Shown piece after piece: positions 46,607-51,790 of a stretch of DNA of 64,000 nucleotides. The stretch covers positions 124,001 to 188,000 of the forward strand of contig JAFGUF010000027.1 in the NCBI GenBank assembly GCA_016938675.1. Direction: 5' to 3'. The notes beneath the pieces are model-generated. The model worked only from the letters and a program-made list of their open reading frames with translations, was not told where the DNA came from and did not search any database. This DNA comes from Clostridia bacterium (GTDB lineage: Bacteria; Bacillota; Clostridia; Christensenellales; UMGS416). Position 1 is the first letter of the stretch, and each line of letters opens with the position of its first letter. The translations under genes and the position numbers were made by a program.

Positions 46607-47974
46607 TTAATATCCAATTAAATATGCATGCTCAAGAATACTTTTTCCAATAATGGCTGAAACATTTTCATCCACATATGACTGCTCGGTTATCACGCAG
46701 ATAACAAGAGGGTGCAAAGGGTCGTCTATGTAGCCCATATACCACGCGTTAGGATAGAGGCTGTTATCAACTGATGAGATAGCTGTTCCCTCCGTTCCGA
46801 ATATGCTGATATTAGATGATTCAATTTTTTCAGCATTCAAGCTCATTAGATGTTTTAGGAATTGATCAGTATCATCGGATAATACCCTTGACCCGCTTTT
46901 GTGATTTATTTCTTTGCTATCTATAGATTTTATGAGAACCGGCGACATCATTTTGCCGTCATTGGCGACTGCTCCTAAAATCATGGACATATGAAGGGGA
47001 GATACTATATCTTCATGCTGGCCGATAGCTGCATAGGCAAAGGCGGCGGCTTCTTCCTTTGGAGATACACTGATGCTTGAAGGATATAGCTCAATATCCG
47101 AGTATGACAGCTTTTTATTAAAACGCAGCTGCTCAGCAAATGATGTGAGCTTTTTTGCACCTAGCTCTACGCCTAAATCAGCAAAAAATACACTGCATGA
47201 ATTTTGAAAAGCATAGTCAAGGTTCATATTGCCATGAGCTGAGCTGCACTGCAGGATTTCGTTGTCTATATTGTAGCTTCCGCTGCATGTATATTGGCGA
47301 TTTGAGACAGCATCAATGTTTTCGTATGCAGCACCAGCTGTTATTAAATAGAATAATGAGCCGGGTGCATATTGTCCCTGGATTGCTCGGTTTACAAAAG
47401 CATCTTCCTGCATGTAATAGCTTAAATTCTCTATTACGCTTTGCGGGTCAAAAGCCGGCGTGGAAACCATGCATAAAATTTCACCCGTTGTGTAATCCTG
47501 AACTACAACTGCGCCGGAATAATCTTTTAATAAATCATATGCAAACAAATTAAGACGGTAGTCAACTGTAAGGTCAATATCTTTGCCCGCTTTTTCAGTT
47601 TGCCTTATAGTCCTGCTTAATGTAGAAAGAAATGATTCATTGCTGTTTAAAAGTATGGAAGCATACTGAATTTCAGCACCAGTCGGGCAGTAGCCATATG
47701 TGTCTCCGATAAGGTGGGAGACTGAATTTCTCGCAGTTTCACTGCTGCTGTATGTTCGCTCGCCCTCTTCATAGCCCGCTAGAAGTATGCCGTTAGTATC
47801 ATATATACTTCCTATTTCAACGGACTGCCTGAGTTCTTTGAGCCTTTTGTTATAAGGTGAGTTGATCAGTTTGTCCGACTGGCTTAAGTTTATTAGAAAC
47901 GCCACTAGTACAGCAGCGAACAAGACCATTATTACTACAGAAGCTTTTATAATATTTTTTTGTATCTGGTTCAT
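46607..47974 (-). CDS. Class B penicillin-binding-protein homologue with degenerate active site (pseudoenzyme)
   Basis: 455 residues. One N-terminal membrane helix (about 10-30), a small pedestal region, then a transpeptidase-like domain. The fold-specific sequence is clear: GAVVVQDYTTGEILCMVSTPAFDP, AIQGQYAPGS, NAWYMGYIDDP. All three catalytic motifs are altered. SxxK reads S206-L-F-Y209; SxN reads S259-C-S261; the K-T/S-G motif reads T394-E-G396. It should not acylate penicillin or cross-link peptides. It overlaps the FtsW gene by 4 bases (ATGA), so it is co-translated with a SEDS glycosyltransferase and may serve as its regulatory partner. No frameshift is seen, which argues for a maintained protein. 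Confidence 0.85.
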   Translation of the reverse strand: MNQIQKNIIKASVVIMVLFAAVLVAFLINLSQSDKLINSPYNKRLKELRQSVEIGSIYDTNGILLAGYEEGERTYSSSETARNSVSHLIGDTYGYCPTGAEIQYASILLNSNESFLSTLSRTIRQTEKAGKDIDLTVDYRLNLFAYDLLKDYSGAVVVQDYTTGEILCMVSTPAFDPQSVIENLSYYMQEDAFVNRAIQGQYAPGSLFYLITAGAAYENIDAVSNRQYTCSGSYNIDNEILQCSSAHGNMNLDYAFQNSCSVFFADLGVELGAKKLTSFAEQLRFNKKLSYSDIELYPSSISVSPKEEAAAFAYAAIGQHEDIVSPLHMSMILGAVANDGKMMSPVLIKSIDSKEINHKSGSRVLSDDTDQFLKHLMSLNAEKIESSNISIFGTEGTAISSVDNSLYPNAWYMGYIDDPLHPLVICVITEQSYVDENVSAIIGKSILEHAYLIGY

Positions 47975-49206
47975 GCATCTTCCTCCTTAAGTTCTTCCGC
48001 GGAATTTTTGGATCCGACAGATAGAATAATTCCTGCAAGGACAAAGGAAATGATTATGGATGATCCCCCATAGGAGACAAAAGGAAGTGTAATTCCTGTC
48101 AATGGCATAATCCTTAGAATACCACCCAATATAATAAAGGTCTGAACAGAAAGAAGCGCTGTTGAGCCAAACGCTATTAGAGCATAAAAAGAATCATTTT
48201 GCTTCAGCGCAATTTTTATTCCTTCATATGCGATTATCACGTAGAAGCCAATAATCAAAAGCCCCATTATGATGCCCATTTCTTCATTAATAGCAGTAAA
48301 TATATAGTCTGTTTCATAGGCAGGCACATATCGAGGCGAACCTATGCCAAGCCCAGAGCCGAAAGCGCCTCCGGACACCATAGAGATAAGGCCTTGTATT
48401 ATCTGATACCCTCTGTCATTTGGGTCTGACCAAGGATGCAGCCATGCATCCACTCTAACCTGTACATGGGAGAAAAGAAAATAGCTGATATATGCAGCCA
48501 GAACAAAGGCTCCGAATGCGGAAAGAGTAAGCCAGGCGGAATTTTTTCCGGCGTAAAAGATAAACAAAAACACAATAAAATAGAGCAATGCTGCGCCAAG
48601 GTCGTTGGCAAGAACTAAAAGCAGTATGCTTATCATTGTAAAAATAACGCCAAGCACATAAACATAAAATTTTCTTTTTTTGCAGAAAACACTGCTTACA
48701 GCCAAAACAAGAAAAATCTTAACGAATTCTGAAGGCTGAAGAGATATGCCAAGGGAATCAAGCTTTATCCAGTTTTGTGCGCCGCCTACGACTGATCCGA
48801 AAACAAAGGTTATGAGCAGAAGCGTTAAACCAGTGCCCATATATAAAAAGTATCTGTTATCTATATTTTTAAGTTTTGCAAGCACTTTTGCCGTCACAAA
48901 CATTAGTGAAAATCCAAGTGCAACCCATATCATCTGCTTTATTCCCAAATCCGGCTCTAGCCTATAGAGAATAATCAGAGACACAGCACACAGCATATTG
49001 ACAGCTATGACTATTGGCCTGTTAACCTCCGCAAAAAAAGCATTGATGATTATGTACTGAGTAAATAGCAAAAGCACAGCCGCAAGGCTGAAAAGCAGAG
49101 CACGTGCGTCAAACTGAGAATTTCTGAATGCGAGCAGTGCATACCCGACTATATAAAAAATAGCAATTTCGCTGAAATGGAGCCTGTGTTTGCTCGTATT
49201 AAACAT
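47971..49206 (-). CDS. SEDS-family peptidoglycan glycosyltransferase (FtsW/RodA-like)
   Basis: 411 residues from the ATG at 49206, which overlaps the end of the FHA gene by 8 bases. About 10 membrane helices. The SEDS signatures are intact: LQPSEFVKI, WSDPNDRGYQIIQGL, SGLGIGSPRYVPAYETDYIFTAINEE (catalytic-type Asp in ETDYIF), and the final LPFVSYGGSS. It polymerises lipid II, normally with a class B PBP; here that partner is the altered protein directly downstream. The FHA-FtsW-PBP order is known from Actinobacteria and Clostridia. Confidence 0.92.
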   Translation of the reverse strand: MFNTSKHRLHFSEIAIFYIVGYALLAFRNSQFDARALLFSLAAVLLLFTQYIIINAFFAEVNRPIVIAVNMLCAVSLIILYRLEPDLGIKQMIWVALGFSLMFVTAKVLAKLKNIDNRYFLYMGTGLTLLLITFVFGSVVGGAQNWIKLDSLGISLQPSEFVKIFLVLAVSSVFCKKRKFYVYVLGVIFTMISILLLVLANDLGAALLYFIVFLFIFYAGKNSAWLTLSAFGAFVLAAYISYFLFSHVQVRVDAWLHPWSDPNDRGYQIIQGLISMVSGGAFGSGLGIGSPRYVPAYETDYIFTAINEEMGIIMGLLIIGFYVIIAYEGIKIALKQNDSFYALIAFGSTALLSVQTFIILGGILRIMPLTGITLPFVSYGGSSIIISFVLAGIILSVGSKNSAEELKEEDA

Positions 49207-49630
49207 TTTGTGCCTCTTCCATTTCAGTAGAGAGCATAAATACCATGCTTTCTTTACCGAAAGATATAACATCTTTATCCGTGAGTAAGGTTCTGTCGTC
49301 TATGAACTGCTTGTTTAAATATACTTTTGTGTCTTTATATGGGATTATCACCCATTCGCCACAGTCTTCAAGTATTCTTAAATGATATCTTTTTACAAAA
49401 GGAGAGTTTATGACGATATTGCATTTTTTTGAGCGCCCGATAATGCTTTCGTGGCGAAGGTCAAAAATTGCTTTTCCTCTATTCCACTTTAAAGATGCTG
49501 GATTTAATGGTTTTTTTGACTGAGCGGCTTTTCGTATTTCAAGCAGTGCAGCTACAAAAATGAGAAAACAGACAAGAATTAAAATATATCTGCCTATCAT
49601 TGCAAGCAGAATGTATATATGTGTTTCCAT
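49199..49630 (-). CDS. Membrane-anchored FHA-domain protein
   Basis: 143 residues from the ATG at 49630 (an ATG at 49666 is also possible; neither has a clear SD). A membrane helix at about 5-30 is followed by an FHA domain: IIGRSKKCNIVINSPFVKRYHLRI, then VYLNKQFIDDRTLLTDKDVISFG. FHA domains bind phosphothreonine. This suggests that the FtsW-PBP pair is regulated by a Ser/Thr kinase, though none is encoded in this window. Confidence 0.85.
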   Translation of the reverse strand: METHIYILLAMIGRYILILVCFLIFVAALLEIRKAAQSKKPLNPASLKWNRGKAIFDLRHESIIGRSKKCNIVINSPFVKRYHLRILEDCGEWVIIPYKDTKVYLNKQFIDDRTLLTDKDVISFGKESMVFMLSTEMEEAQNV

Positions 49631-49750
49631 GCTATTATAATAATACATTTTGCATTTTTTTGCCATATATTATTTTATTTTAAATTGACTATTTTAATAT
49701 CATACATTATTATGTTTTAGTAAACCAAAAATACTATTTAAGGAAAATAT

Positions 49751-50641
49751 ATGAATAAAGCAAAATTTTACTTTTTAGCGGCCCTAGTAATTGCAGTATC
49801 TTTTCTTTCAGGCTGCAGCGATAATGTGCAGCAGCCTGAAAACCCAGAAGTGCGGGAAGATGTGGAGATTGTAGTGGCTGCACTTGAGCAAAAAGACAGT
49901 GAATTCTTGTATAATACATATTTCAATTACATGGACAAAGAAAAGTTCAACGAAGAATTGGATGGATTGTTTGATATTATTCATGGAGAGATTACTAATA
50001 TTAGATTTTATAATACGGATTCAGAATCCAATTATCCGCTGAATAATGACAGTGACAGAACATATCAAATGAACGCAATATACATAGTAGATACCACTAA
50101 AAGCACATATATGTTAACCATGAACTATAGCAGCACAGACAGCATAAACTACGTACTTTCCGGTTTTTCTATTTCTGACAATGCTAATTTTGTGGTGAAC
50201 TCCAGATATGATGATTATAATACAATGGCTTGGATATTATTTATACTGAACTTTATATCATATGGAATAATGATAGTTGCGTTTATATTGTGCATGAAAA
50301 CAAGAATAAATAGACAAGTGCTATGGACAATATTAATTCTGATTCAAACAGGATTTACAATTACTATTTTCCCCAATAATTTTAATATATCTACTCAGTT
50401 TATATGGTTACTGGGCATAAGTAGACATTTAGTATATGCTCACGGAGGAACTCATACAACAGTTGTGTTCCATGTTTTTGCTGCGGTGTTCCTAGTAGTA
50501 AGAAAATCGCTTCATGCACAGTTTCTAAAAGAAGAGGAGCTGGCAAAGAAATTTATAGAGGAATCAAAAAAACAAACTATAAACAACGATATAAATAAAG
50601 AGAAAACAGAAGAAACTGTAAAACCTAAAAACGAGGAATAA
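49751..50641 (+). CDS. Lipoprotein with DUF5104/DUF3887-like domain and C-terminal membrane helices
   Basis: 296 residues. Signal peptide with lipobox FLSGC (Cys near 22), then a region rich in VVAALEQKDSEFLYN...F, resembling small NTF2-like domains found in Clostridial lipoproteins. Three membrane helices follow (about 160-182, 190-208, 222-250) and a charged C-terminal tail. Combining a lipid-modified N-terminus with a polytopic C-terminus is unusual. Function unknown. AAGGAA is the SD. Confidence 0.6.
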   Translation: MNKAKFYFLAALVIAVSFLSGCSDNVQQPENPEVREDVEIVVAALEQKDSEFLYNTYFNYMDKEKFNEELDGLFDIIHGEITNIRFYNTDSESNYPLNNDSDRTYQMNAIYIVDTTKSTYMLTMNYSSTDSINYVLSGFSISDNANFVVNSRYDDYNTMAWILFILNFISYGIMIVAFILCMKTRINRQVLWTILILIQTGFTITIFPNNFNISTQFIWLLGISRHLVYAHGGTHTTVVFHVFAAVFLVVRKSLHAQFLKEEELAKKFIEESKKQTINNDINKEKTEETVKPKNEE

Positions 50642-50884: not shown

Positions 50885-51790
50885 CTATGGATTGGAAAAA
50901 AGCGCTTGGTCATCGCCCTGAAGCGGAGTTATCAGACGCGCTTGTATAACCAGTCTTTCATCATCCGGCCCGTTTGTACAGGTTGAAAGGGTGAGTATTC
51001 TGTCTTCAGGGGATATTACAGTATTGTTATTGTTATAGTAGCTTTTATATACGCACTGCGTCATCAGATTAACAAAATCATCATCTGTATCAAAATATGT
51101 CTGTATATAGTAAAAATCTATTGTAGTTATAAAAACATTGATAACTTCCCATTCAAGCTCCTGATAGAGCGTATCATATCTTATTATAAGGTGGTCATCA
51201 AAAAAGGATTTCTTAAGATACATATCAAGCTGACCAAACATAGAGCCGTTTTTCATATTATGTCCGTATATTATTGTATGGCGGTCTGACGCATCTATTG
51301 AATTGCGACTGTCTAAGAATATGGATCCGGCTTTGCTGCTTTCTCCGTCAGGGCCTAAATCTATGTATAGAAGCGGCTGCGCCGGGTCATCACTTTGAAC
51401 TACCGGGTAATCAACCTTAATATTATCAATGCTTATCCAGCCAACTATATCAGGATAAATATCTCTGTATTCCGCGTACTTTTCTAGAACTGGCACAGGA
51501 GTGGGCGTAGCTGGCAGAGCAGAGGAAAAAGGTGTAGGCACTGGTTCAAATACTGATGTTGAAGGAAGAGAAGCGGAAACAGCCTCATTTTGCGGACGCA
51601 CGAAAAATGACCAGTAAAGTAAAACTGAAAGGCACACCAACAGAACAGAAAGCATAGAAGCAATAAGAACTTGCCTTTTTCTGTTTAATGTCTGCTCGGA
51701 CGAATTTTCTTTTACTAAGTAGTTTTCACGCATATACTGCTCTTTGTTTAAAGAGGCAGCATCAAAATCATTTTTCTTATTTTTTGGCAT
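50885..51790 (-). CDS. srtB: Class B sortase
   Basis: 301 residues. A cytoplasmic N-terminus, one membrane helix (about 47-68), a Pro/Thr-rich spacer, then the sortase barrel. Catalytic residues: His in IIYGHNMKNGSMFG, C271 in TLSTC, and an Arg in DDERLVIQAR (R279 or R285). The GHNM and TLSTCT forms are typical of class B, which anchors haem-acquisition or pilus proteins. No LPXTG/NPQTN substrate is visible in the window. AAAGGAA is the SD. Confidence 0.92.
   Translation of the reverse strand: MPKNKKNDFDAASLNKEQYMRENYLVKENSSEQTLNRKRQVLIASMLSVLLVCLSVLLYWSFFVRPQNEAVSASLPSTSVFEPVPTPFSSALPATPTPVPVLEKYAEYRDIYPDIVGWISIDNIKVDYPVVQSDDPAQPLLYIDLGPDGESSKAGSIFLDSRNSIDASDRHTIIYGHNMKNGSMFGQLDMYLKKSFFDDHLIIRYDTLYQELEWEVINVFITTIDFYYIQTYFDTDDDFVNLMTQCVYKSYYNNNNTVISPEDRILTLSTCTNGPDDERLVIQARLITPLQGDDQALFSNP

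Follow-up and report, generated by a model that had tools for sequence, protein, structure and literature searches.

The window, i.e., the 64,000-nucleotide stretch of DNA from a Clostridia bacterium analysed here, carries on its minus strand three adjacent and co-oriented genes, which encode an FHA-domain protein, an intact SEDS glycosyltransferase of the FtsW/RodA family, and a PbpA-type class B penicillin-binding protein (PBP) that is predicted to be catalytically dead. The PBP gene (46607..47974, minus strand, 455 aa) overlaps the SEDS gene (47971..49206, minus strand, 411 aa, ATG at 49206) by 4 bases at 47971-47974 (ATGA), and the SEDS gene in turn overlaps the FHA gene (49199..49666, minus strand, stop at 49199) by 8 bases, as the original prediction had described. 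The FHA protein has an N-terminal hydrophobic helix, and its upstream ATG at 49666 gives a product of 155 aa, while the ATG at 49630 is internal and gives 143 aa. These three genes are common to the window and two genomes of the same family, with different flanking genes, and the gene-neighbourhood comparison with relatives revealed no gene in common beyond FHA-SEDS-PBP. In the window, a DUF5104 gene (49751-50641, plus strand) is divergent from the operon and is adjoined by a class B sortase gene (50885-51790, minus strand).

The reading frame of the PBP is unbroken over 455 codons with no stop, and comprises a transmembrane (TM) helix at residues 2-31, a pedestal reaching to about residue 131, and a full-length PF00905 transpeptidase domain at residues 154-448 (121.9 bits). 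All three catalytic sites are changed, as the original prediction had read them. The SxxK site (47348..47359, minus strand) reads S206-L-F-Y209, with Ser206 kept and Lys209 replaced by Tyr; the SxN site (47192..47200, minus strand) reads S259-C-S261, with Asn261 replaced by Ser; and the KTG(T) site (46784..46795, minus strand) reads (G393)-T394-E395-G396-T397, with Lys394 replaced by Thr and Thr395 by Glu. The leading Ser is retained in both SxxK and SxN, as is the Gly of KTG, and relative to its homologues the protein shows a gap of approximately 5-7 residues immediately before the KTG strand. The AlphaFold model is confident (pLDDT 93.1, pTM 0.90) and includes the N-terminal helix at 2-31; the nearest solved folds are a PBP of A. 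parvulum (Z 47.9) and PbpA of M. tuberculosis (3upo, Z 46.5), a shared fold which alone says nothing of function. The protein has the class B PBP architecture, with a single TM helix, pedestal, and PF00905 fold, and lacks the SxxK/SxN/KTG set that belongs to it. Sequencing error was ruled out as the source of these changes by the in-frame substitutions at separate sites and by the dead FtsI proteins found in several independent genomes, described below.

Acylation in known PBPs requires the Lys of SxxK and the Lys of KTG. From these replacements we infer that the PBP is enzymatically inactive and does not bind penicillin, with Ser206 still present. It is conceivable that some altered catalysis, such as carboxypeptidase activity or slow acylation, persists with the general-base residues replaced, given that the nucleophile Ser206 is retained along with Ser259 and the Gly of KTG; this is very improbable, as the SxxK Lys, the SxN Asn, and both the Lys and Thr of KTG are all replaced, and G379-T380 is lost together with a short deletion.

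To place these replacements among relatives, 233 distinct sequences were aligned, i.e., the window PBP and 232 from order- and class-level genomes and GTDB contigs. The results showed that all three motifs (SxxK/SxN/K[TS]G) were kept in 230 of the 232 homologues; in the remaining two, contig ends cut the sequence before KTG and the other two motifs were kept, so that motif loss in the alignment is confined to the window PBP. Of the first 153 loci, 151 had a SEDS gene in the same locus. Across 61 genomes belonging to the order of the window's genome, the best homologues were 32-38% identical to the window PBP, and no relative above 38% identity was found in the genome contigs, in the family-level search, or in IMG/VR. 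Because the PBPs of the other operons in the family (genomes G001 and G005) and the homologues of the order have intact motifs, catalysis is read as ancestral, with its predicted loss on the window's branch, and an operon family that is inactive as a whole was ruled out. The original prediction had counted orthologues with intact motifs as evidence against itself and had looked to shared replacements as evidence in its favour; the orthologues do retain the motifs and none of the 232 shares the replacements, which shows only that it is this lineage that would have lost catalysis.

The SEDS partner of the PBP is intact by sequence. The SEDS protein (PF01098, 237 bits) departs at none of approximately 34 conserved columns, and its essential Asp, in ETDYIF (48307..48309, minus strand; residue 322 when counted along the long reading frame), aligns with the catalytic Asp of RodA structures, the same residue that was mutated in the RodA structure 6bas, in agreement with the intact partner originally described. 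The FHA protein fared differently. Its domain keeps GR and the His, and the SxxH motif reads KRYH, with Lys in place of the phosphate-contacting Ser that, along with GR and S-x-x-H, marks phosphothreonine-binding FHA domains. This Ser is kept in only 10 of the 42 operon FHA proteins aligned. Canonical phosphothreonine reading by the operon FHA is unlikely on this evidence, and the suggested control of the PBP through it was dropped as the main mechanism, since the contacting Ser is replaced both in this operon and in the majority of members of the order. The gene is kept despite this loss, and the FHA domain may bind something else. Three Ser/Thr kinase genes are present in the window's genome.

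We then considered whether the PBP is maintained or decaying. A reading in which it is an early pseudogene in a dispensable operon, its frame open by chance, draws on several observations: the operon was detected in 3 of the 8 genomes of the window's family and was not found in the other five, mostly incomplete assemblies, in which it may be dispensable; no terminal branch in the PBP tree is longer than that of the window protein; and the losses in residues 376-455 go beyond the catalytic residues. At the 44 columns conserved at 95% or more, the window PBP departs at 8 (K209Y, N261S, G379L, T380N, K394T, T395E, G435D, and A443G). At the 85% threshold, the columns lost were 0 of 15 in the TM/pedestal part, 3 of 40 in residues 132-375, and 10 of 18 in residues 376-455, the last being enriched in losses in comparison to the rest of the protein (Fisher P 1.4e-5). 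The ratio of window to sister branch lengths on fixed trees was 3.05 for the PBP in comparison to 3.15 for the SEDS partner; because these are about equal, the whole lineage appears to be fast, and residues 376-455 on the KTG side, with a ratio of 8.35, are the sole specially accelerated segment. To arrive at the four catalytic codons takes no fewer than 6 nucleotide changes, spread over 12 sites, and under neutral substitution the best joint probability of these changes and of a stop-free frame was 1.8e-6, with indels ignored. Neutral decay is rejected, and neither the broken frame nor the neutral rate of a pseudogene was found. Purifying selection on the PBP is suggested by indirect tests, namely the rate scaling, the conserved columns, and the open frame. 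With the TM and pedestal columns intact, a confident fold, and a rate that tracks that of its partner, the early-pseudogene reading is improbable, and the protein appears to be kept, as the original prediction had held.

The window's genome contains three SEDS proteins and six PF00905 proteins; one of the latter, on contig C21, appears as two hits. The motifs are kept in a PBP2 beside a SEDS gene on contig C21, in a MecA_N-type PBP on contig 3, and in two class A PBPs. The sole dcw-cluster copy of FtsI/SpoVD (L001, G000:C2:60881-63139) reads SAFE/SCS/ISGN, i.e., all three motifs are lost, and it retains its PASTA and PBP-dimer domains; the cluster also has a SEDS gene and, downstream, ftsA and ftsZ as judged from N-terminal sequence only. 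Of the three class B PBPs linked to a SEDS gene in this genome, two hence look dead. Four YkuD L,D-transpeptidases and two Spo0A-like proteins are also encoded there.

The same change was found across the order. Among 95 dcw FtsI/SpoVD sequences sampled, 81 were intact and 14 were flagged, one of which (L354) was truncated only. In the window's family, dead FtsI was found in three genomes (SAFE/SCS/ISGN, SIFR/SCN/MSST, and TSFG/SCN/LPGI). Family f31 contains a seven-species clade with dead FtsI (L399, L400, L403-L406, and L350; for example NIFG/HCS/ISGS, SIFG/HCS/LSGS, and AIFS/QCV/LTAA), as well as genome G239 with QAYG/NCG/YTGV, and G017 of family f11 reads SLFK/NCD/LSGL. FtsI of G027 is partly changed (STLE/SCN/KTGT). 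Counted among these sequences are two losses separate from that of the clade (L401 and L412) and one partial loss (L372), all in other lineages of the order. On the tree, dead FtsI arose about five separate times. For the two closest pairs in the seven-species clade, dN/dS was 0.053 and 0.059 by NG86 and 0.062 and 0.047 by YN00, values which are rough as dS exceeds 1 and is near saturation; dead FtsI in the clade is under strong purifying selection, which further argues against the early-pseudogene reading of the window PBP. Complete genomes, 2.56 and 2.97 Mb in size, are among those of the clade. The phenomenon is broader than the original prediction saw: the idea of one dedicated operon that separates glycan polymerisation from cross-linking was too narrow in scope, with the dcw FtsI of the same genome also dead and the change recurring across the order.

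Of the 13 genomes whose FtsI is dead or partly changed, 12 had MecA_N proteins, in comparison to 38 of the 67 remaining genomes, almost all of which have an intact FtsI (Fisher P 0.025, uncorrected for phylogeny), an association that is weak given shared ancestry. The one exception, G002, is 68% complete; it has a MecA-like PBP that is truncated and in which the motifs are intact. In the MecA-type PBPs, SxxK and SDN were intact where read, with KTG often lying outside the stretch. In four genomes that are 96-99% complete (G010, G083, G100, and G116), a search at E 1e-25 matched no dcw FtsI/SpoVD. The FHA-operon PBP is present in at least G010 and G116 and might take on the division role in them.

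Taken together, our preferred reading, to which we assign a probability of about 0.7, is that the window PBP is a pseudo-transpeptidase which activates its SEDS partner, with cross-linking carried out in trans by another enzyme. We infer this role because the protein keeps the parts that activation needs and has lost parts that it does not. Contacts between the pedestal and ECL4 of the SEDS protein, together with TM contacts, are known from RodA-PBP2 and FtsW-FtsI, and the kept TM and pedestal columns are consistent with a SEDS-activating role. The PBP would have given up its D,D-transpeptidase and penicillin-binding chemistry, with the membrane helix, the pedestal, and the general fold retained; it would bind the operon SEDS polymerase and activate it allosterically through the pedestal-ECL4 and TM contacts; and the glycan made by the pair would be cross-linked in trans, most likely by the MecA-type class B PBP on contig 3, although the two class A PBPs and the four YkuD L,D-transpeptidases are candidates as well. 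The suggestion that the PBP acts only as an activator is accordingly still the best reading of a protein predicted to be inactive, seemingly maintained, and partnered with an intact SEDS protein.

The fold could instead be kept for another purpose, with the protein serving as a sensor of peptidoglycan stems or beta-lactams, or as a competitive inhibitor of the SEDS pair. A transpeptidase cleft that retains Ser206 and Ser259 would suit such a function, and in C. difficile a catalytic mutant of PBP3 is worse than the deletion, for which competition with SpoVD was raised by the authors as one possibility (PMC12713402). Yet the 4-base translational coupling to the SEDS gene and the retention of all TM and pedestal columns favour a partner role, and the strongest relaxation lies in the cleft-lining KTG-side segment, unlike what a preserved ligand site would show, which makes a sensor or inhibitor unlikely.

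The activator reading may extend further. Across the order, SEDS-cognate class B PBPs including FtsI may repeatedly have become pure pseudoenzyme activators, with division cross-linking passed to a MecA-type PBP, and two of the three SEDS pairs in the window's genome may be run in this way, which would divide polymerisation and cross-linking between different proteins in nature; we consider the chances of this wider proposal to be evenly balanced. Engineered mutants had already shown that some SEDS partners divide cells without transpeptidase activity of their own. Natural lineages without PBP catalysis, if real, would indicate that activation is the one function a class B PBP cannot give up, and would suggest how MecA/PBP5-type enzymes could come to take over division cross-linking in evolution, a takeover that bears on the intrinsic beta-lactam tolerance of gut anaerobes. 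With complete genomes available in the dead-FtsI clade, cultured strains may permit direct tests. In the open-access literature searched, to which this statement is confined, we came across no account of a natural loss of catalysis in FtsI or in a SEDS-partner PBP.

Among known systems, the locus resembles the actinobacterial RodA-PbpA locus (fhaB-pstP-rodA-pbpA-pknA-pknB), in which a PbpA-type PBP is likewise directly downstream of the SEDS gene with FHA upstream. The window operon differs in being without a kinase or phosphatase and in the loss of the phosphothreonine Ser from its FHA protein, and M. tuberculosis PbpA (3upo), solved as an acyl-enzyme, keeps catalysis, which the window PBP is predicted to have lost. 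SEDS activation operates through the pedestal-ECL4 interface (PMC8078798). PBP2B of B. subtilis with the S309A change supports division but renders PBP3 (PbpC), a MecA_N PBP, essential (PMC5656894), i.e., a dead class B PBP likewise has a structural role while a MecA_N-type PBP transpeptidates; that protein is an engineered point mutant, whereas the window case is natural, has lost three motifs, and involves an accessory SEDS pair in addition to FtsI. In C. difficile, asymmetric division by way of SpoVE persists with the S311A form of SpoVD (PMC12713402), so that there too SEDS-driven septation is supported by a class B PBP in part without its catalysis, but wild-type SpoVD and PBP3 keep catalysis, which is needed at other stages, unlike what is predicted for the window PBP. 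In MRSA, transpeptidation by the division PBP1 is reported not to be crucial when the MecA PBP (PBP2a) is present (PMC9426605); that arrangement combines an acquired resistance gene and an engineered mutation, unlike the apparently evolved pseudoenzyme here. By analogy with these systems, the window PBP may be regarded as a natural counterpart of the engineered, catalytically dead class B PBPs.
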